This document shows, in pieces, positions 50,914-64,000 of a stretch of DNA of 64,000 bases. The translations under genes and the position numbers were made by a program. How positions within the stretch are numbered: the stretch's first letter is position 1; each line of letters opens with the position of its first letter. The notes under the pieces are model-generated. The model saw only the letters and a program-made list of their open reading frames with translations, did not search any database and was not told where the DNA came from. The stretch is from Brachybacterium faecium DSM 4810 (GTDB lineage Bacteria > Actinomycetota > Actinomycetes > Actinomycetales > Dermabacteraceae): positions 496,001-560,000 of the forward strand of contig CP001643.1 of assembly GCA_000023405.1 (NCBI GenBank). The letters are read 5' to 3'.

Positions 50914-53685
50914 TCAGTCGAGCGGACGCGCGGCGGCCGAGACCTGGTCGCCGGACTCGAACGAGGCGATCACCGTCACCTCGCCGTCCTCGATGATCGA
51001 CGGCAGGTCAGGCACGCGGATGTTCACGCGCCGCTCTCCCGCCGGCATGTTCCGCTCCATCTCGGCGAGGACGCTCTCACCGTCCCAGACGAGGACCTTC
51101 GCGGTCCCCTTCACCGGCGACTGGAAGACCGCCGTGATCCGGTCCTTCTTCCGCTCGACCGACGTGATCTCCAGGTGCGGGGCCGTCGGGCTGTGCCCGC
51201 CGAGCGGCACGCGGTCCCCGGCGCTCTGAACGATCGACAGCGGCGAGTCGATGGACCGTGCCGCCGTCGAAGGCAGCACGGCCTCCTTCGGCTCGGAGCC
51301 GGCGTCCTCCATCCCCTCGAGGGAGACCTGTCCCCAGCGCCAGGGGTCGGCGCGCACGCCGGCGAACGTGGACCAGCCGACCCGCACCTGAGCTGCCTGG
51401 TTCTGCGTGTCGGAGTCGTTGATCAGGACGTTGAATCCCATGTGGCTCGGATCGATCGCATCGGGAAGCACCTCGAACGGGATCTTGGCCTCCACGTCAT
51501 AGCCCGTGTAATTGTCCTCGCTCTCAGCCATGCTCACAGCGACCTCCATGCCCGGGGCGGTCTCCTCGGCGACCCCCTGATGGTTGTCCCGGTCCCGCCC
51601 CACTCCGGGCGGTCCAGTCATCGAGCCCATAGAAGGCATGATGCCGGCGATGAAGGTCTCAGCGGTGTTCGCGGCTTTTCCCCTGGGATCGACGTAGATC
51701 TCGATGGAGTCGGTGCGCCGCTGTCGCTTGTTGTCGTCGACCGGCAGGATCGTGCCACGCACGTCGTCGGCGACGGAGACGAAGACGTAGAGGTTCTCGT
51801 CGTCGAAGGTGACCCAAGAGTCGGCCCGTACGGAGTCCGTGGTGCCTCCCGGCGTGCCGATGCCGTCCCAGATGGTCTCGACCGGGATCGGCTCCCCGGG
51901 ATATTCGTCCTCGTGGCGGTTCCCGTCGATCACCGGGGCCGAATCGGCACGTTCGATGGCCCGGCTCGGCACCAGGTTCATGGTCACCGTCCGCTCGGCT
52001 GTGGAGCCGTCCGTGCTCGTGTGCAGGTCCACCGGCCAGGAGCCTTCATTCTCGGCACGGTTCGCGGTGGGGAGCGACTCATCGGTGTTGGCGATCTCGA
52101 CGGAGAGCGACGTGCTGCCGCCAGCGGTGACGGACCCGGTGTCGAGGGCCGGGGGAGCGGCGGTGAACCCTTCGGGAACATCGACCTCGACCGAGCCGCT
52201 GAGTTCCTGGGTGGAGTAGTTGCGGACAGTGATCGCGAGATCTCGGGCGCGACCCTGCCCGACGGCGAAGAGCTCCGGCACCAGAGCATCGAGATGCTTG
52301 AGACCGAGCTCTTCGGTCCATTCGCGGAACTCTCGGATCTCCTCGAGCGGCTCGATGCTCGCCTCGAGGGCTCCTGCGGCGCGGACGGGCCCGCTCGCGG
52401 TCCCGGTCGCACCCCCGGAATCCAGAACCAGGGTCGTCTCGATCCTGGCTGTCGCACCCGGCTCGACCGACGCATCGACAGTGACGTCGAACGCGGCTGA
52501 GTGGCTCTCCCCGGCGGCAAGTGCCGGCACGGGCTGAGAACCGCTGCTGTCCCATCCGTCCGGTCCCGCCAGCGCGACGGTCCCGGCGGGAAGATCTCCG
52601 CTCTGGGGCGCGGTGACGGTCACCGTGACGGTGAGCGGCTCCTCGGCGACGAACTCATAGCGCTCAGGAGCCACCTCCAGGAGGGTCCCGAGCGGCAGGC
52701 CTCCATCGATCGGCAGGGTCGCGCCGCGGAGCGCGGCGTCGTCCCCGCTCGTCGGGTCGCCCAAGGGAGTGCGCGTATGCAGAAGGGTCATCCAGGTGCT
52801 GGCGATCTCCTCCGGGTCCGACGGGCTGCCCTCACGTTCCGCCCAGCCTTGGGTCACGTAGGTCCACATCGCCTCGTCTTTGATCTCGGACCACCGTTTG
52901 CCGTGGGCCTCGCTCGGCGTGCCATCCCAGGCGCCGAAGACGAGATCACTGGTGACCGTCGGTTCGTATCCGCGGGCGACGGCCTCCGGCCCGGTCTCCC
53001 CGGTGCCGTTCGCTCCGCTGCGCAGGATGCGATAAGGCGTCCACGCCGTGAAGCCCTCGTCGAGATGCTCGGGGAATGCGGAGGGGTCTCCCGCCTGGAG
53101 GTAGGCCTCCAACGCGAACATGGCCGCCTGCTGATGGTTGCCGTGGTTGCCCTCGACCGCCGAGGGGTTCATCGTCACGATGACCTCGGGACGGGTCGCA
53201 CGCACCACGCGCACGATGCGTCCGAGCAGCTCGTCCCCTCCCCACACCTGCCGAGACAGCGGTGCGCTCGCCGTGTAATAGAAGTCGAGGGCGTCGAGGT
53301 TGTAGATGTGCTCGATGCCGGCGAGACCGACCGCATCCCGCTCCTCCGCCTCGCGGATGAGCCCGAGAGCCGGCCCCTCCTCGAGGCCGACGGCGTTGCC
53401 GCCGCCTTCCCCGCGGGTCGCGGTGATGACGCCGACCTTCATGTCGTGGAACTCGCCCCACTGCCCGAGGGCGGCCAGAGTGCCGGCTTCATCATCCGGA
53501 TGCGCTCCGATGAACAGGACATTGAGCTTCACGGCGTCTGTTCCTCCGTCAGCCAGGGCGCGTTCGGCAGGGGTGAGGGCGATGTTCGCTCCGGTGAACG
53601 CTGCTGCCAAGCCGATCGCGCCCGAGGCCTGCAGCACCCCTCGGCGTGAAAATTTCGGTGTTGACCTGTGGAGATGATGTTCCAT
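50914..53685 (-). CDS. Tat-exported PIG-L-type deacetylase with C-terminal binding domains
   Basis: A 923-residue multidomain protein. A Tat-like signal with SRRGVLQASGAIGLAAAF lies at residues 14-31. The LmbE/PIG-L deacetylase domain (about 55-330) has the zinc motif GAHPDDEAGTLAA and the second motif NPSAVEGNHGNHQQAA. A long middle part (about 380-600) resembles beta-sandwich NEW3-like domains. The part from about 600-770 looks like a CBM9-type sugar-binding domain (APVIDGNRHEDEYPGE, TDSIEIYVDPRGKA). The family removes acetyl groups from GlcNAc-containing or related compounds. It is divergent from the ROK regulator of the transporter/lyase locus and likely part of the same regulon. Confidence 0.85.
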   Translation of the reverse strand: MEHHLHRSTPKFSRRGVLQASGAIGLAAAFTGANIALTPAERALADGGTDAVKLNVLFIGAHPDDEAGTLAALGQWGEFHDMKVGVITATRGEGGGNAVGLEEGPALGLIREAEERDAVGLAGIEHIYNLDALDFYYTASAPLSRQVWGGDELLGRIVRVVRATRPEVIVTMNPSAVEGNHGNHQQAAMFALEAYLQAGDPSAFPEHLDEGFTAWTPYRILRSGANGTGETGPEAVARGYEPTVTSDLVFGAWDGTPSEAHGKRWSEIKDEAMWTYVTQGWAEREGSPSDPEEIASTWMTLLHTRTPLGDPTSGDDAALRGATLPIDGGLPLGTLLEVAPERYEFVAEEPLTVTVTVTAPQSGDLPAGTVALAGPDGWDSSGSQPVPALAAGESHSAAFDVTVDASVEPGATARIETTLVLDSGGATGTASGPVRAAGALEASIEPLEEIREFREWTEELGLKHLDALVPELFAVGQGRARDLAITVRNYSTQELSGSVEVDVPEGFTAAPPALDTGSVTAGGSTSLSVEIANTDESLPTANRAENEGSWPVDLHTSTDGSTAERTVTMNLVPSRAIERADSAPVIDGNRHEDEYPGEPIPVETIWDGIGTPGGTTDSVRADSWVTFDDENLYVFVSVADDVRGTILPVDDNKRQRRTDSIEIYVDPRGKAANTAETFIAGIMPSMGSMTGPPGVGRDRDNHQGVAEETAPGMEVAVSMAESEDNYTGYDVEAKIPFEVLPDAIDPSHMGFNVLINDSDTQNQAAQVRVGWSTFAGVRADPWRWGQVSLEGMEDAGSEPKEAVLPSTAARSIDSPLSIVQSAGDRVPLGGHSPTAPHLEITSVERKKDRITAVFQSPVKGTAKVLVWDGESVLAEMERNMPAGERRVNIRVPDLPSIIEDGEVTVIASFESGDQVSAAARPLD

Positions 53686-53733
53686 GGATGTTCCTTCCGT
53701 GGTCCGGGCGTCACCTCTGTGTGATGCCATTCA

Positions 53734-53752: not shown

Positions 53753-53880
53753 AGGGTGCGTAACAAGTGGGTGGCGGGCCGTGACTTCCTGCGGTTTTCC
53801 GGCCAGCGGCGTGTGGTGCTGTGGGAGGCCGGGCCCCGCTGCTGCTTGCCCAGAAGCTTTCTGCACGCTATAAAGTAAGT

Positions 53881-55092
53881 ATGTCGACGGTGACCCCGAG
53901 CACAGCCAATGGCGCGCAGAGCCACAGACGCCTGCAGAGCGTCGTGAGCGCGCTGCTCGAGCACGGAACGATGTCGCGCACGGAGCTCGCTGAGCTCACC
54001 GGCTATTCGCAGTCCTCCATGACCGGCTCCATCCGCAAGCTGATGCGACTCGGGCACGTCATCGAGACAGGCCGGGGCCGCTCGACCGGTGGTCGCCGCC
54101 GCACGATGCTCGAGTTCGACCGGCGCAGCGTGCTGCTGATGCTCGTCTCCGTGGATTCCGGTCATCTCGTCGCACGCCAGGTGGACCTCGCCGGCACCGT
54201 GCACGTCCAGGTTCGGCGCCGCCTGGACCCAGACCAGCCGCTCGCCTCTGTGTTGAACGCGATCGACGCGCTCCAGGGCGTCGCGGAGACGCCGTCGACC
54301 TGTGCGGTCATCTCCCTGCCCGGGGTGGTCTCCGCAGAGGGCGACGTCTCCCTCGCGCCTGCACTGGGGCAGCCCACCGACCGCCGCATCCAGGATGTCG
54401 TCGCAGAGGCCTCCGGCCTCCACACCATCGGTGAGAACGATGTGAACCTCCTGGCGCTGGGGGAGGCGATGGGCGGCGCCGCGAAGGATGTCAGCGATTT
54501 CGGGCTCATCTTCGTCGGCGACGGCATCGGGGGAGCGCTGGTGCTGGACGGCCGAGTGCATCGCGGCGTCTCCGGTTCTGCCGGTGAGATCGGGTTCCTC
54601 CCGTGGAGCGGAGCGCTCAGCAGCGGGGGGAGTGCGGTCGGCCCACTCGAATCCGACTGGTCCGTCTCGGCTCTGCGAGTGAAAGCAGAGCAGATCGGCA
54701 TCGATGCCGATGATGCGCACGTGGTCGAAGCGCTCGAGACCAGCGATGCGCCGGAGGCACGGGCTCTCCTGGACGCCGCCACCGACGCATGGGCCTATGC
54801 GGGTGTTGTGCTCACCTGTGTCATCAACCCCGGTCGCATCGTGTTCGCCGGGGACGCCGCACACCTCTCGGCAGCATCCCGAGCTGCGCTGTCAGCCAAG
54901 GTCCTGGCGGGCAGCCCTTCACCGATCGAGATCTGCTTCGCCGAGCTCGGCGAGAACGCCATCGTCAGCGGGGCGATCGCACATCTGCAGAACGCACCGT
55001 GGATCTTCCTCCCGGAGGACGAGGAGCGTCCCGACACCACTCGTACGACGACGGAGGCCGGTGCAGAACCCCCGTCATACCCCCAGACCTGA
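53881..55092 (+). CDS. ROK-family transcriptional regulator
   Basis: A 403-residue protein. The N-terminal winged HTH (about 15-70) reads LLEHGTMSRTELAELTGYSQ, then SSMTGSIRKL. The ROK kinase-fold domain (about 90-340) has VISLPGVV, LIFVGDGIGGALVLDGRVHR and the ROK signature GVSGSAGEIGFLPW. The zinc-binding Cys cluster of NagC/XylR proteins is not evident. ROK regulators sense sugars or sugar phosphates, which supports a sugar-type substrate for the locus. The start is ATG 53881; it leads the transporter genes 28 bases further on. Confidence 0.9.
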   Translation: MSTVTPSTANGAQSHRRLQSVVSALLEHGTMSRTELAELTGYSQSSMTGSIRKLMRLGHVIETGRGRSTGGRRRTMLEFDRRSVLLMLVSVDSGHLVARQVDLAGTVHVQVRRRLDPDQPLASVLNAIDALQGVAETPSTCAVISLPGVVSAEGDVSLAPALGQPTDRRIQDVVAEASGLHTIGENDVNLLALGEAMGGAAKDVSDFGLIFVGDGIGGALVLDGRVHRGVSGSAGEIGFLPWSGALSSGGSAVGPLESDWSVSALRVKAEQIGIDADDAHVVEALETSDAPEARALLDAATDAWAYAGVVLTCVINPGRIVFAGDAAHLSAASRAALSAKVLAGSPSPIEICFAELGENAIVSGAIAHLQNAPWIFLPEDEERPDTTRTTTEAGAEPPSYPQT

Positions 55093-55120: not shown

Positions 55121-56203
55121 ATGATGTTGAACCGACGTAAGTATCTGCAGGGCACGGCACTGATCGGAACGGCCGCAGCGCTCGCTGCCTGCGGCCTCGA
55201 TCAGGGCGGCGGCTCCGGCGGAGGCGAAGGCGGCGGGGACGGCGACGGCGGCCCGGTCCCCTTCACGATCTATACCGCCCGAGACAGCGAGCTCGCTGAG
55301 AAGGTCGTCGCCGATTTCGAAGCCGCCAACCCGGACTGGGAGGGCATGGCCACCATCCTCACGCTCGGGGCGCAGGAGGCTCTCGAGCGAGTGCGTGCGG
55401 AGAAGTCCAACCCGCAGGGAGACCTGTGGTGGGGAGGCACCCGACAGCAGCTCTCCCAGGGAGCTGCCGATGGGGTTCTGGCGCCCGCACCGCAGGAGGT
55501 CATCGACGCCGTGCCCGAGGACTACCGCGATCCCGAGGGCCTCTGGGTCGGCGAGATGCTCCTGGCAGAGCTGTTCATGATCAACACCGAGATGATCAGC
55601 GGGGACGAGATCCCGGCCGATTGGGATGACCTTCTCGACGCGGCGTACAAGGGCGAGGTCGTCATCCGCGACGTCGAGGCGTCAGGCACCATGCGCGCCA
55701 TCTACTGCGCCATGATCGACCGTCTCTATGACGATGCGGGTTCTGCCGAAGCCGGCTACGAGTGGCTGCTCGAACTGGACGCCAACACGGTGACCTATGC
55801 CGCGAACCCGACGGACATGTACCAGCGCGTCAGCCGTCAGGAAGCCGCTCTCTCACTGTGGAACCTCCAGGACATCATGCTGCAGAAGAACGGCGACTTC
55901 CCCATGTTCGATGCCGTCGTCCCCGCCTCGGGCGCACCGATGCTCGTCGACGGTCTCGCCAAGATCGCCGACGGGCCCGGCGGTGCCGGAGCGGATGCTT
56001 TCATCAGCTATCTGATGAGCACTGAGGTCCAGACCTCGATGGCCGAGGAGTATTACCAGATCCCGGCGATCGAGCTCGAACAGGAGCCGCAGTGGCTCGC
56101 CGACCTCGGCCTCGAGGAGATGCAGCTCGACTGGGACCGGATCGCTGAGAACGAAGAGGAATGGATCGGTCACTGGGCCAGCAACATCAAGGGCAAGGGC
56201 TGA
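55121..56203 (+). CDS. ABC transporter substrate-binding lipoprotein (PotD/FbpA class)
   Basis: A 360-residue binding protein with the lipobox LAACG near residue 20 and a Gly/Asp-rich linker. The mature domain is of the extracellular-solute-binding family 1/2-aminoethylphosphonate or iron type (FTIYTARDSELAEKVVADFE, GDLWWGGTRQQLSQGAADG). No Tyr cluster of iron-binding FbpA is obvious. It follows the ROK gene. The start at ATG 55121 has GGAGAGC 5 bases before it; the in-frame ATG 3 bases later is possible. Confidence 0.88.
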   Translation: MMLNRRKYLQGTALIGTAAALAACGLDQGGGSGGGEGGGDGDGGPVPFTIYTARDSELAEKVVADFEAANPDWEGMATILTLGAQEALERVRAEKSNPQGDLWWGGTRQQLSQGAADGVLAPAPQEVIDAVPEDYRDPEGLWVGEMLLAELFMINTEMISGDEIPADWDDLLDAAYKGEVVIRDVEASGTMRAIYCAMIDRLYDDAGSAEAGYEWLLELDANTVTYAANPTDMYQRVSRQEAALSLWNLQDIMLQKNGDFPMFDAVVPASGAPMLVDGLAKIADGPGGAGADAFISYLMSTEVQTSMAEEYYQIPAIELEQEPQWLADLGLEEMQLDWDRIAENEEEWIGHWASNIKGKG

Positions 56204-56274: not shown

Positions 56275-57366
56275 ATGAACTCAGTCGACCTCGAGAACGT
56301 CACCAAGATCTACAGCGGGAGCACACCTTCCGTCGATGATGTCTCCCTGACGGTCGGGGACGGTGAATTCTTCACGCTGCTGGGCCCGTCCGGCTGCGGA
56401 AAGTCGACCACCTTGCGCATGATCGCGGGGTTCATCAACCCCACATCGGGCAACATCCGCTTCGGCGAGCGCGACGTCACGAACCTCCCGCCGCACAAGC
56501 GCGATACCGGCATGGTGTTCCAGAACTACGCGCTCTTCCCCCATATGGATGTCGCCGGGAACGTGGCCTATGGGCTGTCGATGCGGCGTGTCGCGAAGGG
56601 GGAGAAGCGGACCCGGATCGCAGAGGCCCTCGAGATCGTGGGCTTGACGGGCTACGCGGACCGGCGCATCGATCAGCTCTCCGGCGGACAGCAGCAGCGC
56701 GTCGCGCTCGCCCGCGCACTCGTGATCCAGCCTTCGGTGCTGCTCCTCGACGAGCCTCTCTCGAACCTCGACGCGAAGCTGCGGGAGGAGACCCGCGCTC
56801 AGATCCGACAGATCCAGCAGCGCGCAGGCACCACGAGCGTCTACGTCACCCATGACCAATCCGAGGCGATGGCGATGTCCGATCGCATCGCGGTGATGAA
56901 CGCCGGGGTACTCCACCAGGTCGGGGCACCGCGCGAGATCTACCGCCGTCCCACCACGAGCTTCGTCGCTCGCTTCATCGGTCGCTCGAACGTCCTTCTC
57001 GGCACCGTGGAAGAGACCGGGGCCGAGCAGATCGCCGTCCGCCTCAGCGGTGGTGAGGTCCTGTTGGCGCCCGTGGCGGAGGGGACGCTCTCGGCCGACG
57101 TCGCCGTGGGCGACGACGTCGCTCTGTCGGTCCGGCCCGAGACGATGCGCATCGAACCCGCGCCCGCCGAGAGCGGCACCGACGTGGGAGCGATCCGCGC
57201 GGCAGTCCGGATGACGGAGTTCACCGGTTCGAGCTGCGTGATCTGGTTGCGGTACGGAGACGAAGACCTTCTGGCGACCATTCCGGACACCGACGACCTG
57301 CCGGAGGCTGGCGACGAGGTGTTGCTGCGACCGGACGCGGCCCGTGCCTGGGTGGTGGCACCATGA
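56275..57366 (+). CDS. ABC transporter ATPase, PotA/FbpC type
   Basis: A 363-residue ATPase. Walker A is GPSGCGKSTT near residue 38-47, the signature is LSGGQQQRVALARAL, Walker B is LLLDEPLSNLD and the switch His is in YVTHDQSEAMA. The C-terminal TOBE domain begins near residue 280. It energises the fused permease encoded next. The start is ATG 56275 behind GGAGGA. The stop overlaps the permease start by 4 bp. Confidence 0.93.
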   Translation: MNSVDLENVTKIYSGSTPSVDDVSLTVGDGEFFTLLGPSGCGKSTTLRMIAGFINPTSGNIRFGERDVTNLPPHKRDTGMVFQNYALFPHMDVAGNVAYGLSMRRVAKGEKRTRIAEALEIVGLTGYADRRIDQLSGGQQQRVALARALVIQPSVLLLDEPLSNLDAKLREETRAQIRQIQQRAGTTSVYVTHDQSEAMAMSDRIAVMNAGVLHQVGAPREIYRRPTTSFVARFIGRSNVLLGTVEETGAEQIAVRLSGGEVLLAPVAEGTLSADVAVGDDVALSVRPETMRIEPAPAESGTDVGAIRAAVRMTEFTGSSCVIWLRYGDEDLLATIPDTDDLPEAGDEVLLRPDAARAWVVAP

Positions 57367-59126
57367 CGCTGACCGCTCGCCCCGCCGCAGCTGCCACTCC
57401 CACGATGGGACGCAGCCGCCTCCAGCTGACGGCCTCGGACCGCTTCGTCTATGTGCTGGCGATCCCGCTCGTGCTCGTCCTGCTCATCTACATCGTCTTC
57501 CCGATGATCGCGACGGTGTTCACCTCGGTCGAGGACGGTGGAGCGGCGTACTCCGACTTCGTCTCCGGCAATTCACGCCGGGCTCTCGCCTTGTCCGTCG
57601 GGATCTCGCTGGCCTCGGTGTTCACCGCTGGCGTGGTCGGCACAGGCCTTGCCGTGCTGTTGACCCGATTCAGTTTTCCCGGGCGCTCCGTGCTGAAGGT
57701 CTTCGCACTGCTGCCGCTGGCGCTGCCGCCTCTGATCGGTGCGCTGTCGTTCTATTACCTCTACGGCACGAGCGGCATCATCCCTCGCCTGCTGCATGAG
57801 GTGACGGGAATCCCGGCGGCGACGATGTCCTTCGACGGGGTCGCGGGCGTCATGCTCGTGCACACCCTGACCATGTACCCGTACTTCTACCTCTCGGTGA
57901 CCGCGGGGCTCTCCGGCAGCGATGCCTCTCTCGAGGAGGCCGCGATGAACCTCGGCGCGAGCCGCTCGGCGATGTGGCGCACGGTGCTGCTGCCGATGCT
58001 CACCCCCGCTCTTGTCTCCGGTGCGCTCCTGACGTTCATGGTGTCGATGGCCTCGTTCACGGCCCCGCAGTTCTACAACGTCAACACGCTCACCATGCGC
58101 ATCGTTGCGGCCAAGACCTCCGGGGCCTACGACCTCGCCGCAGCGCAGTCCACGGTGCTCTCGGTGGTCTCGATCCTGTTCCTGCTCCTGATGCGCTGGT
58201 ACCAGAACCGCCGACTGACCCGTTCGATGTCCAAGGGCACTCCGCAGGCGGTCAAGACCGTGCAGGGGATCATCCCCCAGGCCGGGGCTGCGCTCGGCTC
58301 CGCTGTCATCGTGCTCATCCTGGCCGCGCCCGTGGCGGCCATCGTGTTGCTCGCCTTCACGGTGAACGGCACCTGGACCACCCAGATCATCCCGCCCGAC
58401 TACACGTTGCAGAACTTCATCGACATCTTCACCGAGCCTCGCAGCCTCCGACCGCTGCTGGTGTCCTCCCAGATGTCTGCGGTGGCGATGGCCGCGTCGA
58501 TCGTCGTCGGCGTGCTGACGGCCTGGGTGATCGCTCGGTGGAAGGGGAAGGGCGCGGGCATCCTCGATCTGATGATCATGCTGCCGTGGGCACTGCCCGG
58601 CACGGTCGTGGGCATCAACATCGTCACCGCCTTCGCGTCTCCGACACCGTTCAACCTGGGCCAGGTGTTCATCGGCTCGCTGTGGATCCTGCCGCTGGCG
58701 TACTTCATCCGCTTCGTGCCGCTGGTCTTCCGCAACGCGGCTGCGTCTCTCGCCCAGATCGATCCCTCCGTGGAAGAGGCCGCCCAGAACCTGGGTGCCG
58801 GCCCCTTCCGGACATTGCGCACGATCACGCTGCCGCTCATGGCCCGCGGCGTGATCGCGGGTGCCCTGCTCGCGTTCGTCCAGGGCTTCGGGGAGTACGT
58901 GGCCTCCGTGGTCATCTATCCGGCCCGTTTCGTACCGCTCTCGGTGGAGATCTACAACCGTCAGTACGCCAACGATCTCGGATCGGCCTTCGCCTACGGC
59001 TCGCTCCAGGTGCTCGCCATCCTCATAGTCCTGATCATCTCGGAGGTCCTGGAGAAGCCAGGACGCTTCACGCGCCGTCGCCGCACCGGTGACAGCGCCG
59101 CAACCGCCGCAGCCACCGCTGCGTGA
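57363..59126 (+). CDS. Fused two-domain ABC permease (FbpB/ThiP type)
   Basis: A 587-residue permease with about 12 membrane segments in two homologous halves. Each half has the EAA loop that contacts the ATPase: EEAAMNLGASRSAMWRTVLL near residue 190 and VEEAAQNLGAGPFRTLRTIT near 475. The layout is that of ferric iron, thiamine and 2-aminoethylphosphonate importers. Together with the preceding binding protein and ATPase it forms a complete importer. It is followed, 12 bases later, by the lyase-kinase gene. Confidence 0.92.
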   Translation: MTLTARPAAAATPTMGRSRLQLTASDRFVYVLAIPLVLVLLIYIVFPMIATVFTSVEDGGAAYSDFVSGNSRRALALSVGISLASVFTAGVVGTGLAVLLTRFSFPGRSVLKVFALLPLALPPLIGALSFYYLYGTSGIIPRLLHEVTGIPAATMSFDGVAGVMLVHTLTMYPYFYLSVTAGLSGSDASLEEAAMNLGASRSAMWRTVLLPMLTPALVSGALLTFMVSMASFTAPQFYNVNTLTMRIVAAKTSGAYDLAAAQSTVLSVVSILFLLLMRWYQNRRLTRSMSKGTPQAVKTVQGIIPQAGAALGSAVIVLILAAPVAAIVLLAFTVNGTWTTQIIPPDYTLQNFIDIFTEPRSLRPLLVSSQMSAVAMAASIVVGVLTAWVIARWKGKGAGILDLMIMLPWALPGTVVGINIVTAFASPTPFNLGQVFIGSLWILPLAYFIRFVPLVFRNAAASLAQIDPSVEEAAQNLGAGPFRTLRTITLPLMARGVIAGALLAFVQGFGEYVASVVIYPARFVPLSVEIYNRQYANDLGSAFAYGSLQVLAILIVLIISEVLEKPGRFTRRRRTGDSAATAAATAA

Positions 59127-59138
59127 GAGGAGCCCCTG

Positions 59139-61610
59139 TTGACGCAGGAGAACACTGCCCCCGAGCCCGATGCATCCCGCCGGGCCCCGCTGCGCGACCG
59201 CGAGGATCTGTCGATCTACTGGGACAACCATCTGCGAGTCGCGTTCGAGCAGTCTGCACCGCATGACCTGCCTGCAATGGTCGAGGCCAGCCTCGCGCAC
59301 GTGGTCATGCTGCGGGAGACCGGCGCGCTCACCGAGCAGCGCGCGGACCGACTTCTTGGCGGGCTGTTGACGCTCTGGCGGAGATGGGGCGACGCCCAGC
59401 CCGGGGAGGACTGGCGACCGCGAGTCACCTCCCACCCCTTCGACGGCTCGGTGGAAGACCCCTACTACTACCTCGAGCAGCAGCTGGCCGCTGCCTGCGG
59501 GATCAGCACATCGGATCTGGATGTGCAGCTCGCCCGCAGCCGCAATGACCTGGACGCGGGAGTGTTCCGCATGATCCTGCGTCGGGGGATCTTGGACCTC
59601 GCCGAGCTGCTCCTGCAGGCGGTCCGAGACCTGGAGGAGGCTGCTGCCCGCACGGTGGATGCATTGCTCATCGGGCACACGCATCGTCGACCGGCTCAGC
59701 CGACCACGATTGCGCACGTTCTCTCCGGGCTCGCCGAAGCGTTCCTCTCGCAGGCGGAGGAGCTGCTGTCCGTATACGACGAGATGAACGTGTCCCCGCT
59801 CGGCTCGGCCGCGTTCACCGGCACAGACATCGCGATCGACGCGCAGCGCGTAGCGGACCTGCTGGGCTTCTCGAGCTCTTTCACCGCCTCCTACGAAGCG
59901 GTCGCGGGCGCCGAGCACTTCATGCGACTGGCCGGTCTGCATGCCCGCATCGCGTCGACCGGGGCACGATGGGCGCGGGTGCTGCAGGAGTGGATGAACC
60001 TGGGCTGGGTGCGGATGCCCGACGAGTTCACCCAGGGCTCTTCGATCATGCCGCAGAAGAAGAATCCCGTCGTGCTCGAGCACCTCGTCTCGATGTCCGG
60101 CGCCGCGAACGGCGAGACGAACGCCGTGTACACCACGATCGCCGCCGGCTGGTACGAGGACTCGAACAACGCCACCACCGACGTCCAAAAGCATCTGTGG
60201 TCCTCGACCGAACGCATCATCCGCTTCGTGCGCCTGATCGACGGGCTCACCCTCGAGATCGAGCCCGCAGCCCTGCCCTCCGACGAGGACATCGTCCGCT
60301 CCGGCGCCACCACCACGGCGGTCGCTGAAGCGCTCGCGACCCACTCCGTCCCATGGCGCAGCGCACACGACGTGGTGGGCACGCTGTTCCGGCAGGGCGA
60401 TCCGACCACGTGGGATGAGGGACAGGTCGAAGCAGCGCTCGCCGAGGCCGCGATCGACGACGACGGACGCCTGCGCGACCTGGTGCTCTCCTCGGGACGC
60501 GACCCGCGACGGATCCTGGAGCGCGAACAGCCCGGATCCCCGGGACGGCAGGCCATCGCCATCGCGTTGGAGCACGCCGAGCAGCGCGAACGGTCGCTCG
60601 TGAGGCAATTCCAGGAGCGGCGGCGAGCGCTGGACACCGCGCGCGAACAGCTGCTCACGACGGCGACGGACCTGGCCGACATCAGGACCACCGGATGTGC
60701 TCTCAGCGTCATCGGCAATGCGAACCTCGATGTCATCGTGCACGCCGCGACGACGTTCCCACCCGCGGGAACCGAACAGATCGTGCCCGAGATCGAGGTG
60801 CGGCTGGGAGGATCCGCGGCGATCGCCGCACAGCGTGCCGCCCAGCTCGGCCTCGCGACCCGACTCACCGCGAAGGTGGGTGACGATCCTTCAGGGCAGA
60901 TGGTGCGAGCGCTCGCCGAGGTCGACGGGCTCGACCTGGACCTCATCACGGCGCAGTCCGTCAGCTCCGGACTGACGGTCGTCTCCGAGGAACGGGGATG
61001 CGAGCGGTCGTTCCTGTCCTCGCTCGGAGCAATGGGGAGCTTCGCCCCGGAGGACGTTCGCGCCGAAGCATTCGAGGCGAAGTTCGCGCTTTTCAGCGGG
61101 TATTTCCTCTTGCCGGAGCTCCAGGGTGGTGCCGCTGCGGCGCTGCTCCGGAGGGCCCGAAGCAGTGGAGCCACCACTGCGATCGACACGGGTCATCCTG
61201 ACGGCGGGTGGACCGAGCGCACGCGCGCAGAGATCTTCGAGCACGTGCTGCCCCATACCGACATCATCCTGCCCAACGAGAGCGAGCTGCTCGGACTGAC
61301 CGGCGTCGCGGGTGTCGAGGACGCGGCACGTGACCTCTCCGCACGGACCGGAGCACTGGTCGTGGCGAAGCTCGGCGCGGAGGGAGGGCTTGTGTGCACG
61401 GGCGAAGAGGTGCATCGAGCTCCCGCACCCGCAGTGACCGCTCGGGACACCACCGGGGCCGGCGACACGTTCAATGCCGTCTTCTTCTGGGCGCTCAGCC
61501 GCGGCCTGGACGTCGCCGACGCTCTCGATGCGGCGGTCGCCGCTGCCTCACAGCTGGTGGCCTTGGAGCCGCACGCGCGGGCAGCGCATCTGCGCTCTCT
61601 GCGCGTCTGA
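59139..61610 (+). CDS. Fusion of ArgH-like lyase and PfkB-family kinase
   Basis: An 823-residue protein. Residues 20-490 are an argininosuccinate-lyase-like member of the fumarase/aspartase superfamily. It carries LARSRNDLDAGVF at 131-143, GHTHRRPAQPTT near 179-190 and the superfamily signature GSSIMPQKKNP at 300-310. Residues 522-823 are a PfkB/ribokinase domain with VRLGGSAAIAAQRAAQLG-type N-terminal motif and the catalytic DTTGAGDTFNAVFFW near 770. Such lyases eliminate fumarate or similar from a C-N bond; PfkB enzymes phosphorylate sugars or nucleosides. The start is TTG 59139 behind GAGGAG; the next in-frame ATG lies too deep. The fusion order is unfamiliar to me. Its substrate is unknown. 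Confidence 0.88.
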   Translation: MTQENTAPEPDASRRAPLRDREDLSIYWDNHLRVAFEQSAPHDLPAMVEASLAHVVMLRETGALTEQRADRLLGGLLTLWRRWGDAQPGEDWRPRVTSHPFDGSVEDPYYYLEQQLAAACGISTSDLDVQLARSRNDLDAGVFRMILRRGILDLAELLLQAVRDLEEAAARTVDALLIGHTHRRPAQPTTIAHVLSGLAEAFLSQAEELLSVYDEMNVSPLGSAAFTGTDIAIDAQRVADLLGFSSSFTASYEAVAGAEHFMRLAGLHARIASTGARWARVLQEWMNLGWVRMPDEFTQGSSIMPQKKNPVVLEHLVSMSGAANGETNAVYTTIAAGWYEDSNNATTDVQKHLWSSTERIIRFVRLIDGLTLEIEPAALPSDEDIVRSGATTTAVAEALATHSVPWRSAHDVVGTLFRQGDPTTWDEGQVEAALAEAAIDDDGRLRDLVLSSGRDPRRILEREQPGSPGRQAIAIALEHAEQRERSLVRQFQERRRALDTAREQLLTTATDLADIRTTGCALSVIGNANLDVIVHAATTFPPAGTEQIVPEIEVRLGGSAAIAAQRAAQLGLATRLTAKVGDDPSGQMVRALAEVDGLDLDLITAQSVSSGLTVVSEERGCERSFLSSLGAMGSFAPEDVRAEAFEAKFALFSGYFLLPELQGGAAAALLRRARSSGATTAIDTGHPDGGWTERTRAEIFEHVLPHTDIILPNESELLGLTGVAGVEDAARDLSARTGALVVAKLGAEGGLVCTGEEVHRAPAPAVTARDTTGAGDTFNAVFFWALSRGLDVADALDAAVAAASQLVALEPHARAAHLRSLRV

Positions 61611-61646: not shown

Positions 61647-63032
61647 CTAGAAGCGGATATCGGGCAGTTCGACGAGACGCTCCACCACGGCGGCGGCCCG
61701 CAGGACCGCCGCCTCGCCGAGCGCCGGCCCGAGGAACTGGATCCCGACCGGCATCTCATCGACCATCCCGCACGGGACGGACGCCGACGGGATGCCGACG
61801 AGGTTCGACGGGCCGACGAGACGCATCAGCTCACCGTCCCGGTCGCGGCTCTCGCCCGTGACCTGGACGGTGGCCTCGCCGACGCGCGGGGTGCGGATCG
61901 GCAGGGTCGGGGAGGCGATGACATCGACCTCGGAGAAGGCGCGGTGGAACTCGCCCTTCAGACGGGAGCGGATCTGCTGGGCGTGGAGATAGTCGACGGC
62001 GGAGGGCAGCGTGCCGCACTCGACGAGCTGGCGCACGTCCTCGCCGTACTCCTCGCCGCGCCGACGGAACTGGTCGTCGTGGAAGGCCGTGGTCTCGGCG
62101 GTGTCGATCACGGTGAGGGCGAAGGTCGCCTCCGCGAGCGAAGGGAGTGTGAGAGGAACGAGCTGCGCGCCCGCCTCGACCATGGCGCCGAGCGTTCCGC
62201 GCACCACGTCCTCGACCGCGGGGTCGATGCGGTCGAAGAAGAAGTCCTCCTCGATCCCGATGCGCAGCGGAGCCTCCGCCGCCATCTCCTGCGCGGTCAT
62301 CGTCGGTGGCAGCGGCAGCGACGACGGGACACGGGGGTCGTGCCCGCTGATCGCATCCAGGAGAAGCGCCGCATCGGCCGCGGTCTGGGTCAGCACACCG
62401 ACGTGGTCCAGGCTCCACGCCTCCGGGTAGCAGCCGTAGCTGCTCACGCGGCCATAGGTGGGTTTGAGCCCGACGATGCCGCAGGCCGCTGCGGGGATCC
62501 GGATGGAGCCGGAGGTGTCGGAGCCGAGGGCGCCCAGTGCCATCCCGGCGGAGACGGCGACGGCGGACCCGCCGCTCGAGCCGCCCGGTGTCCGCTCGGT
62601 ATCCCACGGGTTGCGGCAGATGCCGAAATGAGGGTTCTCCGTGGTGACGCCGAGCGCGAATTCGTGCAGATTCGTTGCGCCGAGCCGTACGGCGCCGTGC
62701 GTGTCGAGCCGGTCGACCACACCGGCGTTCTCCGCCGGGAGGTGGCTGCGATAGATCGCGGAGCCCATCGTCGTGACTCGGCCGGCGACCGCCAGGTTGT
62801 CCTTGACGGCGAGCGGCAGGCCGTCGAGCGGGCCCCGCACCTGTCCTTCTCGCCGGCGGGCATCGGCCTCGTCGGCTCCGCGCCGTGCCCCGTCCGACTC
62901 GACGGTGATGAAGGCGCGGAGTGCGGAGTCGTGCTCCTCGATGCGCGCGAGGCACGCCTCGGTGAGCTCGCGGGATGTGGTCTCGGCTCGGGCGAGACGC
63001 TGTGCGGCGTCGAGCAGGCTCACTGTCGTCAT
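61647..63032 (-). CDS. Amidase-signature-family amidohydrolase
   Basis: A 461-residue amidase. The Ser-cisSer-Lys triad is visible as LAVKDNLAVAG (Lys near residue 76), GGSSGGSAVAVSAG (cis-Ser near 151) and GSDTSGSIRIPAA (nucleophile Ser near 175). The family includes GatA, AtzE/AtzF and allophanate hydrolases. It overlaps the small AtzG-like gene by 4 bp, a pairing known for AtzE-AtzG. Substrate unknown. Confidence 0.9.
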   Translation of the reverse strand: MTTVSLLDAAQRLARAETTSRELTEACLARIEEHDSALRAFITVESDGARRGADEADARRREGQVRGPLDGLPLAVKDNLAVAGRVTTMGSAIYRSHLPAENAGVVDRLDTHGAVRLGATNLHEFALGVTTENPHFGICRNPWDTERTPGGSSGGSAVAVSAGMALGALGSDTSGSIRIPAAACGIVGLKPTYGRVSSYGCYPEAWSLDHVGVLTQTAADAALLLDAISGHDPRVPSSLPLPPTMTAQEMAAEAPLRIGIEEDFFFDRIDPAVEDVVRGTLGAMVEAGAQLVPLTLPSLAEATFALTVIDTAETTAFHDDQFRRRGEEYGEDVRQLVECGTLPSAVDYLHAQQIRSRLKGEFHRAFSEVDVIASPTLPIRTPRVGEATVQVTGESRDRDGELMRLVGPSNLVGIPSASVPCGMVDEMPVGIQFLGPALGEAAVLRAAAVVERLVELPDIRF

Positions 63033-63217
63033 GTCGTCCTCGTCCTGGGGTCGAAGATCATCGCCGGATGCACTTCATGGAGCTGGTCGCGGTCGACGCC
63101 GTCGCGCAGGGCGGCCAGGTCTTCGGCGTGCGTCTGCAGCGCCTCGGCGTCGGTGTCCGGCGTGGAGGGGAAACGAGCTCGGGCGGTGTCGAGCGGATTC
63201 AGAGCGGGCAGTTCCAT
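63029..63217 (-). CDS. Small AtzG/GatC-like amidase partner
   Basis: A 62-residue protein starting MELPALNPLDTARARF and ending HEVHPAMIFDPRTRTT. GatC- and AtzG-like partners are short helical proteins whose C-terminal segment ending in P-x-x-F-x-P wraps around the amidase. The size, the PAMIFDPR ending and the 4-bp overlap with the amidase gene support this. It starts directly at the end of the permease gene (TGATG overlap). Confidence 0.6.
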   Translation of the reverse strand: MELPALNPLDTARARFPSTPDTDAEALQTHAEDLAALRDGVDRDQLHEVHPAMIFDPRTRTT

Positions 63218-64000
63218 CAGTCGACCTTTCCGACGTCGTCGGGCCCCAGCACGAGCGGGGTGTAGTCCTCGTCCACTCGCGCGCGGTAGATCCGCATCGC
63301 GACCGGGACCAGGGCTCCGATGATGATGTAGGCGATGATCGGCGGCCACGCGTTAGCGGGCAGCAGGGTGACTCCCACGATAGTGATCGCAGCGGAGACC
63401 AGCATGCCGAGCACGAACATCGGCTTCCCGACGGGGGAGCGGAACGAGCGCTCCCAGTCCGGACGCTTGCTGCGCAGGCGGTAGGCGGAGAGACATCCCA
63501 GGAAGTACACCGCGCCGGCGGCGACCACCGAGAGGGAATAGGTGTACTGCACCCAGTTCGTGCTGGTGAAGGCAGCGAAGAAGATGCCGAAGCCGAGCAC
63601 GACGAGGTTGCCGATGTACGGCTGGCCGTGGCGGTTGGTGCGGGTGAACCAGGGCGGCAGCTGACGCAGCTGGGAGGCGCCGTAGAGCACTCGGGCCGAG
63701 GAGGTCCAGAACCCCATCAGGGTGGTGAAGGCGTACAGCAGCCCCGCAGCGATCGCGAGCAGGCCGATGATCGCGGGCATGCCCAGCTGATCCACCAGCT
63801 GGGGCTCCGGCACGCTCAGCCCCGCGATGACGTCGTGCGGGGCGAGGCCGCCGATCGCGAAGGTGGCCAGCATGTACACGAGGGCCGGGATGAACAGGCC
63901 CGCGAGGATCACGATGACCATCTTCTTCGCGGCGAAGCGGGTCTCCTGCACCATCGTCGGCGTCATCGCGAAACCGATGTATTTCAGCACGAGCGCGGAG
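63217..64000 (-). CDS. APC-family amino-acid permease, C-terminal part
   Basis: The 261 or so visible residues carry about six membrane segments, including the motif KYIGFAMTPTMVQETRF at the edge and GFWTSSARVLYGASQLRQLP. The frame is open to the window end, so the start is outside. APC permeases import amino acids or amines. It is the first visible gene of an operon with the AtzG-like protein and amidase, which suggests uptake of an amide or an amine released from one. Confidence 0.85.
   Translation of the reverse strand, partial: SALVLKYIGFAMTPTMVQETRFAAKKMVIVILAGLFIPALVYMLATFAIGGLAPHDVIAGLSVPEPQLVDQLGMPAIIGLLAIAAGLLYAFTTLMGFWTSSARVLYGASQLRQLPPWFTRTNRHGQPYIGNLVVLGFGIFFAAFTSTNWVQYTYSLSVVAAGAVYFLGCLSAYRLRSKRPDWERSFRSPVGKPMFVLGMLVSAAITIVGVTLLPANAWPPIIAYIIIGALVPVAMRIYRARVDEDYTPLVLGPDDVGKVD

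Follow-up and report, generated by a model that had tools for sequence, protein, structure and literature searches.

Members of the aspartase/fumarase superfamily are homotetramers with active sites formed from three subunits, and enzymes of the PIG-L family take an acyl group off the nitrogen of glucosamine (GlcN). In the superfamily, the serine of the SS-loop is the base and a histidine is usually the acid; fumarate is bound selectively, and the leaving group differs among members (PMC13411527). Residues D290 and Y320 of EDDS lyase are among those that lie 4-6 Å from the substrate (PMC12363623). Bacillithiol is Cys-GlcN-malate, and its precursor, GlcNAc-malate, is acted on by the PIG-L enzyme BshB (PMC4360819). 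AfuA is a hexose-phosphate binder that was earlier mistaken for an iron protein (PMC4546632).

The window analysed here (64,000 nucleotides of the 3.61-Mb, single-contig genome of Brachybacterium faecium DSM 4810) contains a gene in which a lyase resembling argininosuccinate lyase (ArgH) is joined to a PfkB sugar kinase. We propose, with a probability of about 0.5 and on sequence comparison, that the fusion protein would catalyze two consecutive catabolic steps for an imported glucosamine conjugate with a succinyl-type (malate or aspartate) group.

The fusion gene and its operon

The fusion and its neighbors in the window are as follows.

50914..53730, minus strand: secreted PIG-L-family deacetylase/amidase, 938 aa (Pfam PIG-L, NPCBM_assoc, CBM9_1)
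53821..55092, plus strand: ROK-family transcriptional regulator, 423 aa, divergent from the deacetylase (Pfam ROK)
55124..56203, plus strand: lipoprotein-type substrate-binding protein, 359 aa, SBP_bac_6 family (Pfam)
56275..57366, plus strand: ABC transporter ATPase, 363 aa, TOBE domain (domain matches)
57363..59126, plus strand: fused double ABC permease, 587 aa, two BPD_transp_1 stretches
59126..59141, plus strand: ribosome-binding region GAGAGGAGCCCCTG and TTG start codon (read directly)
59139-61610, plus strand: lyase-kinase fusion ORF, 823 aa, TTG start, uninterrupted frame
59139..60680, plus strand: lyase half, residues 1-514, ArgH-like, aspartase/fumarase superfamily (Lyase_1 match; TIGR00838 below cut-off)
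60681..61610, plus strand: PfkB (ribokinase-fold) sugar kinase half, residues 515-823, and stop codon (Pfam PfkB)
61647-63032, minus strand: AtzE/GatA-type amidase, convergent to the fusion
63217-63999, minus strand: amino-acid-type permease, convergent to the fusion

The sequence GAGAGGAG ahead of the TTG overlaps the permease stop, and the GAGAGGAGCCCCTG context with TTG also occurs at three other Brachybacterium loci (L014, L015, and L016). Pfam places Lyase_1 at residues 128-323 and PfkB at 523-807. The preliminary description had reported an ArgH-like lyase fused to a PfkB kinase with a TTG start, the catalytic signatures SRND, GSSIMPQKKNP, and DTTGAGD, and a transporter-operon setting; the ORF is present as described, all three signatures are in it, and the substrate-binding protein, ATPase, and double permease lie directly upstream. 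A shallow-alignment AlphaFold2 model of the monomer (pLDDT 75.7) matches EDDS lyase (6g3e) and ArgH (6ig5) in the fold of its first part, EDDS lyase being best, and ribokinase-type kinase folds (3h49, 8cqx, 11bl) in its second.

The secreted PIG-L protein has a twin-arginine-type signal, NEW3 and CBM9 domains, and both zinc-site motifs of its family (HPDDE, as AHPDDE at 76-81; HxxH, as HGNH at 196-199). The CBM9 and NEW3 domains suggest a larger or polymeric target. A PIG-L homologue adjoins nine of the ten fused loci, and none was seen beside the fusion in genome G037. In Helcobacillus massiliensis (L019, 1833-4627), the PIG-L gene runs over two overlapping frames with the rest of the cassette intact, possibly a frameshift or sequencing error. 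The ROK regulator, which is conserved in the cassettes described below, has NagC as its best NCBIfam match, below cut-off. PDB relatives of the substrate-binding protein include AfuA (4r72-4r75), a kinship that fits an anionic sugar ligand; its own structural model is poor (pLDDT 39). The convergent amidase and permease show no conservation with the cassette; they were rejected as members and probably form another operon. A search against an anti-phage defense library gave no match.

The lyase half compared with ArgH

Catalytic and pocket motifs were located in the fusion as follows.

59538..59555, plus strand: S134-R135-N136-D137-L138-D139, SRND superfamily motif with the cassette-specific D139 (alignments)
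59679..59684, plus strand: T181-H182, counterpart of the ArgH substrate-contact T/H pair (alignments)
60036..60065, plus strand: SS-loop G300-SSIMPQKK-N309 with the catalytic serine (GSSxxPxKxN consensus, PMC13411527)
60159..60188, plus strand: D341-S-N-N-A-T-T-D-V-Q350, cassette-specific pocket loop in place of ArgH AYNRDLQEDKE (alignment)
61446..61466, plus strand: kinase catalytic motif D770-TTGAG-D776 (read directly)

Alignment indicates that the lyase half retains the SRND-type region, the T181-H182 pair, and the GSSxxPxKxN SS-loop (G300-N309), which places it in the aspartase/fumarase superfamily. On the ArgH equivalog model TIGR00838 it scores 195.7 bits against a cut-off of 279.5, and a separate ArgH in the same genome scores 566.6 bits. 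The lyase half also has weak matches to the XcbC and CMLE families. The motifs of the ArgH arginine pocket (S/D-R-D and AYN-R/K-D-QEDKE) are lost, and the fusion has AGAEH and YEDSNNATTDVQK. ArgH has tyrosine at the D341 position, lysine at Q350, and arginine at A258, residues that we take, from delta-crystallin structures, to bind arginine. EDDS lyase D290 and Y320 align with V311 and D341 of the fusion, and the leaving-group pocket is therefore altered. In the lyase tree, ArgH forms its own clade (100/99) and the cassette lyases, the fusion among them, fall across a 91/83 branch; the deep branches are long and the internal order among phyla is unsure. Score, pocket, and tree together rule out the canonical arginine-pathway ArgH, and the preliminary view that this is not likely to be the arginine enzyme stands on the separate full-score ArgH, the altered pocket residues, and the catabolic operon.

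An alignment of 61 cassette lyases from Actinomycetota, Alphaproteobacteria, and Deinococcus, in which some genomes are counted twice, shows no variation at seven residues (D139, Y252, V311, H315, D341, N343, and Q350). In the 11 lyases used for comparison (ArgH, EDDS lyase, and four other ArgH-like enzymes), D139, V311, N343, and Q350 occur in none, Y252 with D341 in only one, and H315 in three. The full set D139, Y252, V311, D341, N343, and Q350 is absent from all 11 and is diagnostic in separating the new family from ArgH.

Plasmid matches from Azospirillum, Streptomyces, Haladaptatus, and A. vitis were set aside as other ArgH-like lyases in other contexts that lack the residue set. The Streptomyces and Azospirillum lyases (L028, 7848-9380; L029, 7878-9419) have genes for ATP-grasp, cysteine-synthase-like, and kinase proteins next to them, a setting that appears to be biosynthetic and to have no connection with the cassette. 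Lyases of Haladaptatus and Rhizobium (L036, 9929-11416; L041, 7860-9438), the latter annotated as two overlapping pieces, lie beside mandelate-racemase-family enzymes and transporters, which suggests a further ArgH-like family.

Distribution of the fusion and the cassette

The fusion occurs in ten genomes. The preliminary suggestion to look for split neighbors was decisive: many genomes have separate genes for lyase and kinase. It is present in 5 of 38 Brachybacterium genomes (one copy cut by a contig end) and, outside the genus, in Helcobacillus, Tessaracoccus, a Propionibacteriaceae MAG, genome G188, and the Micrococcaceae-type genome G1064 (Micrococcaceae-type and, below, Micromonosporaceae-like are tentative family labels). 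Fused homologues from other Brachybacterium, Helcobacillus, Tessaracoccus, and the Propionibacteriaceae MAG share 61-85% identity, and that of G1064 is more remote. Because the two-domain protein recurs in other genomes, the fusion is no accident of assembly or frame. In every pair, conservation is higher in the lyase half than in the kinase half (for example, 91 vs. 75% and 68 vs. 49%). In G131 and its relatives, lyase and kinase are encoded by two neighboring genes, which overlap by ATGA in G131; losing one stop would therefore create the fusion. In the tree, a single branch (99% SH-aLRT) sets the fused forms apart, and on these sequences one fusion event from split neighbors is sufficient to account for the tree.

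The pairing of lyase and kinase extends beyond the fusion: at least three phyla share a conserved cassette whose core consists of lyase, sugar kinase, ABC importer, and ROK regulator, usually together with a PIG-L gene; the other fused genomes have the same gene set beside the fusion. Split cassettes of Alphaproteobacteria (Aminobacter, Parasedimentitalea, Roseinatronobacter, and Thalassospira) contain PIG-L, ROK, a CUT1-type importer, lyase, ATPase, and PfkB genes. The Deinococcus cassette has ROK, lyase, a secreted PIG-L, importer, a cytosolic PIG-L closest to MshB (PDB 1q74), and PfkB. In the G606 family the lyase is found in 33 of 251 genomes, and a ROK kinase replaces PfkB at the loci read. 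Some plasmid copies of the cassette (Shinella and D. aetherius) are incomplete. Importer, lyase, and sugar kinase are constant components although the transporter and kinase families vary, an argument for placing lyase and kinase in the same pathway. No signal peptide is obvious in the alphaproteobacterial PIG-L, suggesting that compartment and order vary between groups.

Some Micrococcaceae-type cassettes lack a PIG-L gene in the vicinity and have an Amidohydro_2 gene downstream of the kinase, and Micromonosporaceae-like cassettes have an extra creatininase-family and/or Amidohydro_2 gene. In the G606 family, such a gene lies between permease and lyase; the loci with these additional genes are L044 (7621-9497), L082-L095, and L030 (11909-12952). 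These genes go beyond what a bacillithiol pathway explains, and a larger substrate may be involved.

Proposed pathway and known systems

Neighboring deaminase genes bear on the identity of the sugar. In the Loktanella cassette, nagB lies next to the PIG-L gene and scores 252 bits, above cut-off. The operon of the G131/G301/G1191/G1202 lineage includes a NagB homologue, which in G131 scores 209 bits against a cut-off of 236.9. In Roseomonas, a SIS protein is nearest NagB-II (313 bits, below the 430 cut-off). Deaminases from two unrelated families thus adjoin independent copies of the cassette, which points to glucosamine-6-phosphate (GlcN-6-P) as the kinase product. The kinase half belongs to the PfkB/ribokinase family (PF00294, 141 bits against a cut-off of 25.8; DTxGAGD at 770-776), and its DTTGAGD is kept across fused homologues, with DTVGAGD in L019. 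From the NagB and NagB-II neighbors, glucosamine is its predicted substrate. The window's genome has a full NagB of its own at 1516891. Several observations count against the pathway proposed below: a deaminase is adjacent in three lineages only and most cassettes use one elsewhere; the best curated matches of the kinase half are ribokinase and 5-dehydro-2-deoxygluconokinase, all below cut-off; and the CBM9 and NEW3 domains, the additional creatininase-family and Amidohydro_2 genes, and the alphaproteobacterial PIG-L described above fit it less well. A PfkB protein on S. meliloti pSymB (L047) was considered as the glucosamine kinase SMb21217 (PMC11378808) and rejected, as the record carries no annotation and its gene order is unlike that operon.

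In the proposed pathway, the secreted PIG-L enzyme would remove an N-acyl group from the glucosamine nitrogen and the ABC importer would bring the conjugate into the cell. The lyase half would then eliminate fumarate, with the SS-loop serine as base and a histidine as acid, and free glucosamine, which the kinase half would convert to GlcN-6-P. A GlcN-6-P deaminase, linked in some cassettes and encoded elsewhere in this genome, would yield fructose-6-phosphate. Fumarate would pass straight into the TCA cycle and would therefore require no further enzyme. This proposal is built on observed features, namely the domains and motifs, the conservation of the cassette, the altered pocket, and the neighboring deaminases; from them we infer the fumarate product, glucosamine as the released sugar, the malate linkage, and lyase action before the kinase. 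If PIG-L needs a glucosamine amide and the lyase a succinyl group, O-linked malate is the simplest way to provide both; (acyl-)GlcN-O-malate, the bacillithiol core, is thus the likeliest and most economical candidate substrate. The full form of the idea is an undescribed catabolism of bacillithiol, or of the GlcN(Ac)-malate core within it, with an ArgH-like enzyme splitting a malyl glycoside (C-O) into fumarate and glucosamine; it is put forward tentatively and is doubtful.

The preliminary description had suggested that one reaction feeds the other, for example with fumarate eliminated from a substituted amine and a sugar-like part phosphorylated before or after. The coupling of a fumarate-releasing lyase with a sugar kinase is still the best reading, now joined by split genes in a conserved cassette. 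The sugar-like part is narrowed to an amino sugar, probably glucosamine, and the leaving group may be a sugar oxygen and not an amine.

An amine leaving group would return if the lyase acted on a sugar-bearing N-substituted aspartate, such as the Heyns or Amadori product that aspartate forms; cleavage would yield fumarate and either glucosamine or 1-amino-fructose for the kinase to phosphorylate. This chemistry is nearest that of ArgH and EDDS lyase, which act on N-substituted aspartates; known Amadori pathways use PfkB kinases, the kinase half has a match to fructoselysine 6-kinase (50.6 bits against a cut-off of 247), and a glucosamine product would suit the NagB neighbors. It is nevertheless unlikely: the PIG-L deacetylase would have no role on a secondary amine, and the Roseomonas SIS protein is NagB-II-like and not fructoselysine-6-P deglycase (27 bits).

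The order of steps in the proposed pathway could also be reversed, the kinase phosphorylating the intact conjugate before the lyase frees fumarate and GlcN-6-P. A fusion dictates proximity and not order, and the kinship of the substrate-binding protein to a hexose-phosphate binder means that phosphorylated or anionic sugars would suit the system. Such an order seems rather unlikely, since the interchange of PfkB and ROK kinases is easier with a plain free sugar; the first place of the lyase in the linear ORF is a weak further point.

There is a smaller chance that the lyase acts on another carboxylate. It might, for example, break the glycosidic bond that lies beta to a uronate, so that glucosamine would be freed together with an unsaturated uronate in place of fumarate. 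Superfamily relatives take other acids, as the weak XcbC and CMLE matches recall, and oligosaccharides would suit a carbohydrate-binding deacetylase. However, the residues assigned to both fumarate carboxylates are all retained, and no unsaturated-uronate enzyme is conserved in the cassette. A functional argininosuccinate lyase (for arginine salvage or as a second ArgH) fused to a kinase by chance is very improbable: ArgH is the nearest large curated family and public annotations of relatives are mostly argH, but the score is below the ArgH cut-off with a full ArgH elsewhere, the SRD and AYNRDLQEDKE motifs are gone, and the operon is of sugar type.

The lyase occurs in dozens of genomes of three phyla, and its annotated copies are usually named argininosuccinate lyase; automatic annotation thus assigns an arginine step where sugar-conjugate catabolism is probably encoded. 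The cassette is a directly testable pathway, and the natural lyase-kinase fusion would be useful in coupled-reaction studies. If GlcN-malate does undergo C-O elimination, the aspartase/fumarase superfamily would gain a new reaction, and carriers would scavenge a thiol that others make. If the substrate is the bacillithiol core, this would be, to our knowledge, the first route by which a major bacterial thiol cofactor is degraded. Searches of the open-access literature turned up no description of the fusion or of the cassette, none of fumarate being eliminated from GlcN-malate, and no described route that degrades the GlcN-malate core in this way; as the preliminary description had supposed, no pathway with this fusion was found, an absence that is only suggestive as subscription journals lie mostly outside that literature.

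Compared with known systems, the fusion shares with ArgH (TIGR00838; 6iem, 1tj7) its fold, SRND, the T/H pair, the SS-loop GSSIMPQKKN, and presumably the fumarate product. It differs in falling below the family cut-off and in another clade, in its attached kinase and catabolic sugar-type operon, and in its leaving-group pocket (R to A258, Y to D341, and K to Q350). EDDS lyase of Chelativorans (6g3d, 6rx8), an ArgH-like enzyme specialized for another fumarate adduct, is the best fold match, but its D290 and Y320 are V311 and D341 in the fusion, it has no kinase, and its clade position is different. The PfkB sugar kinases (ribokinase, fructoselysine 6-kinase, and YdjH) share fold and DTTGAGD with the kinase half, which is below every curated cut-off and has a lyase attached. 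The AfuABC sugar-phosphate importer has a substrate-binding protein of the same family as 55124-56203, but its gene context is unlike the window operon. The cassette PIG-L protein resembles BshB/Bca and MshB/Mca of the PIG-L family and probably acts on the same kind of glucosamine amide, whereas those enzymes serve biosynthesis or detoxification.
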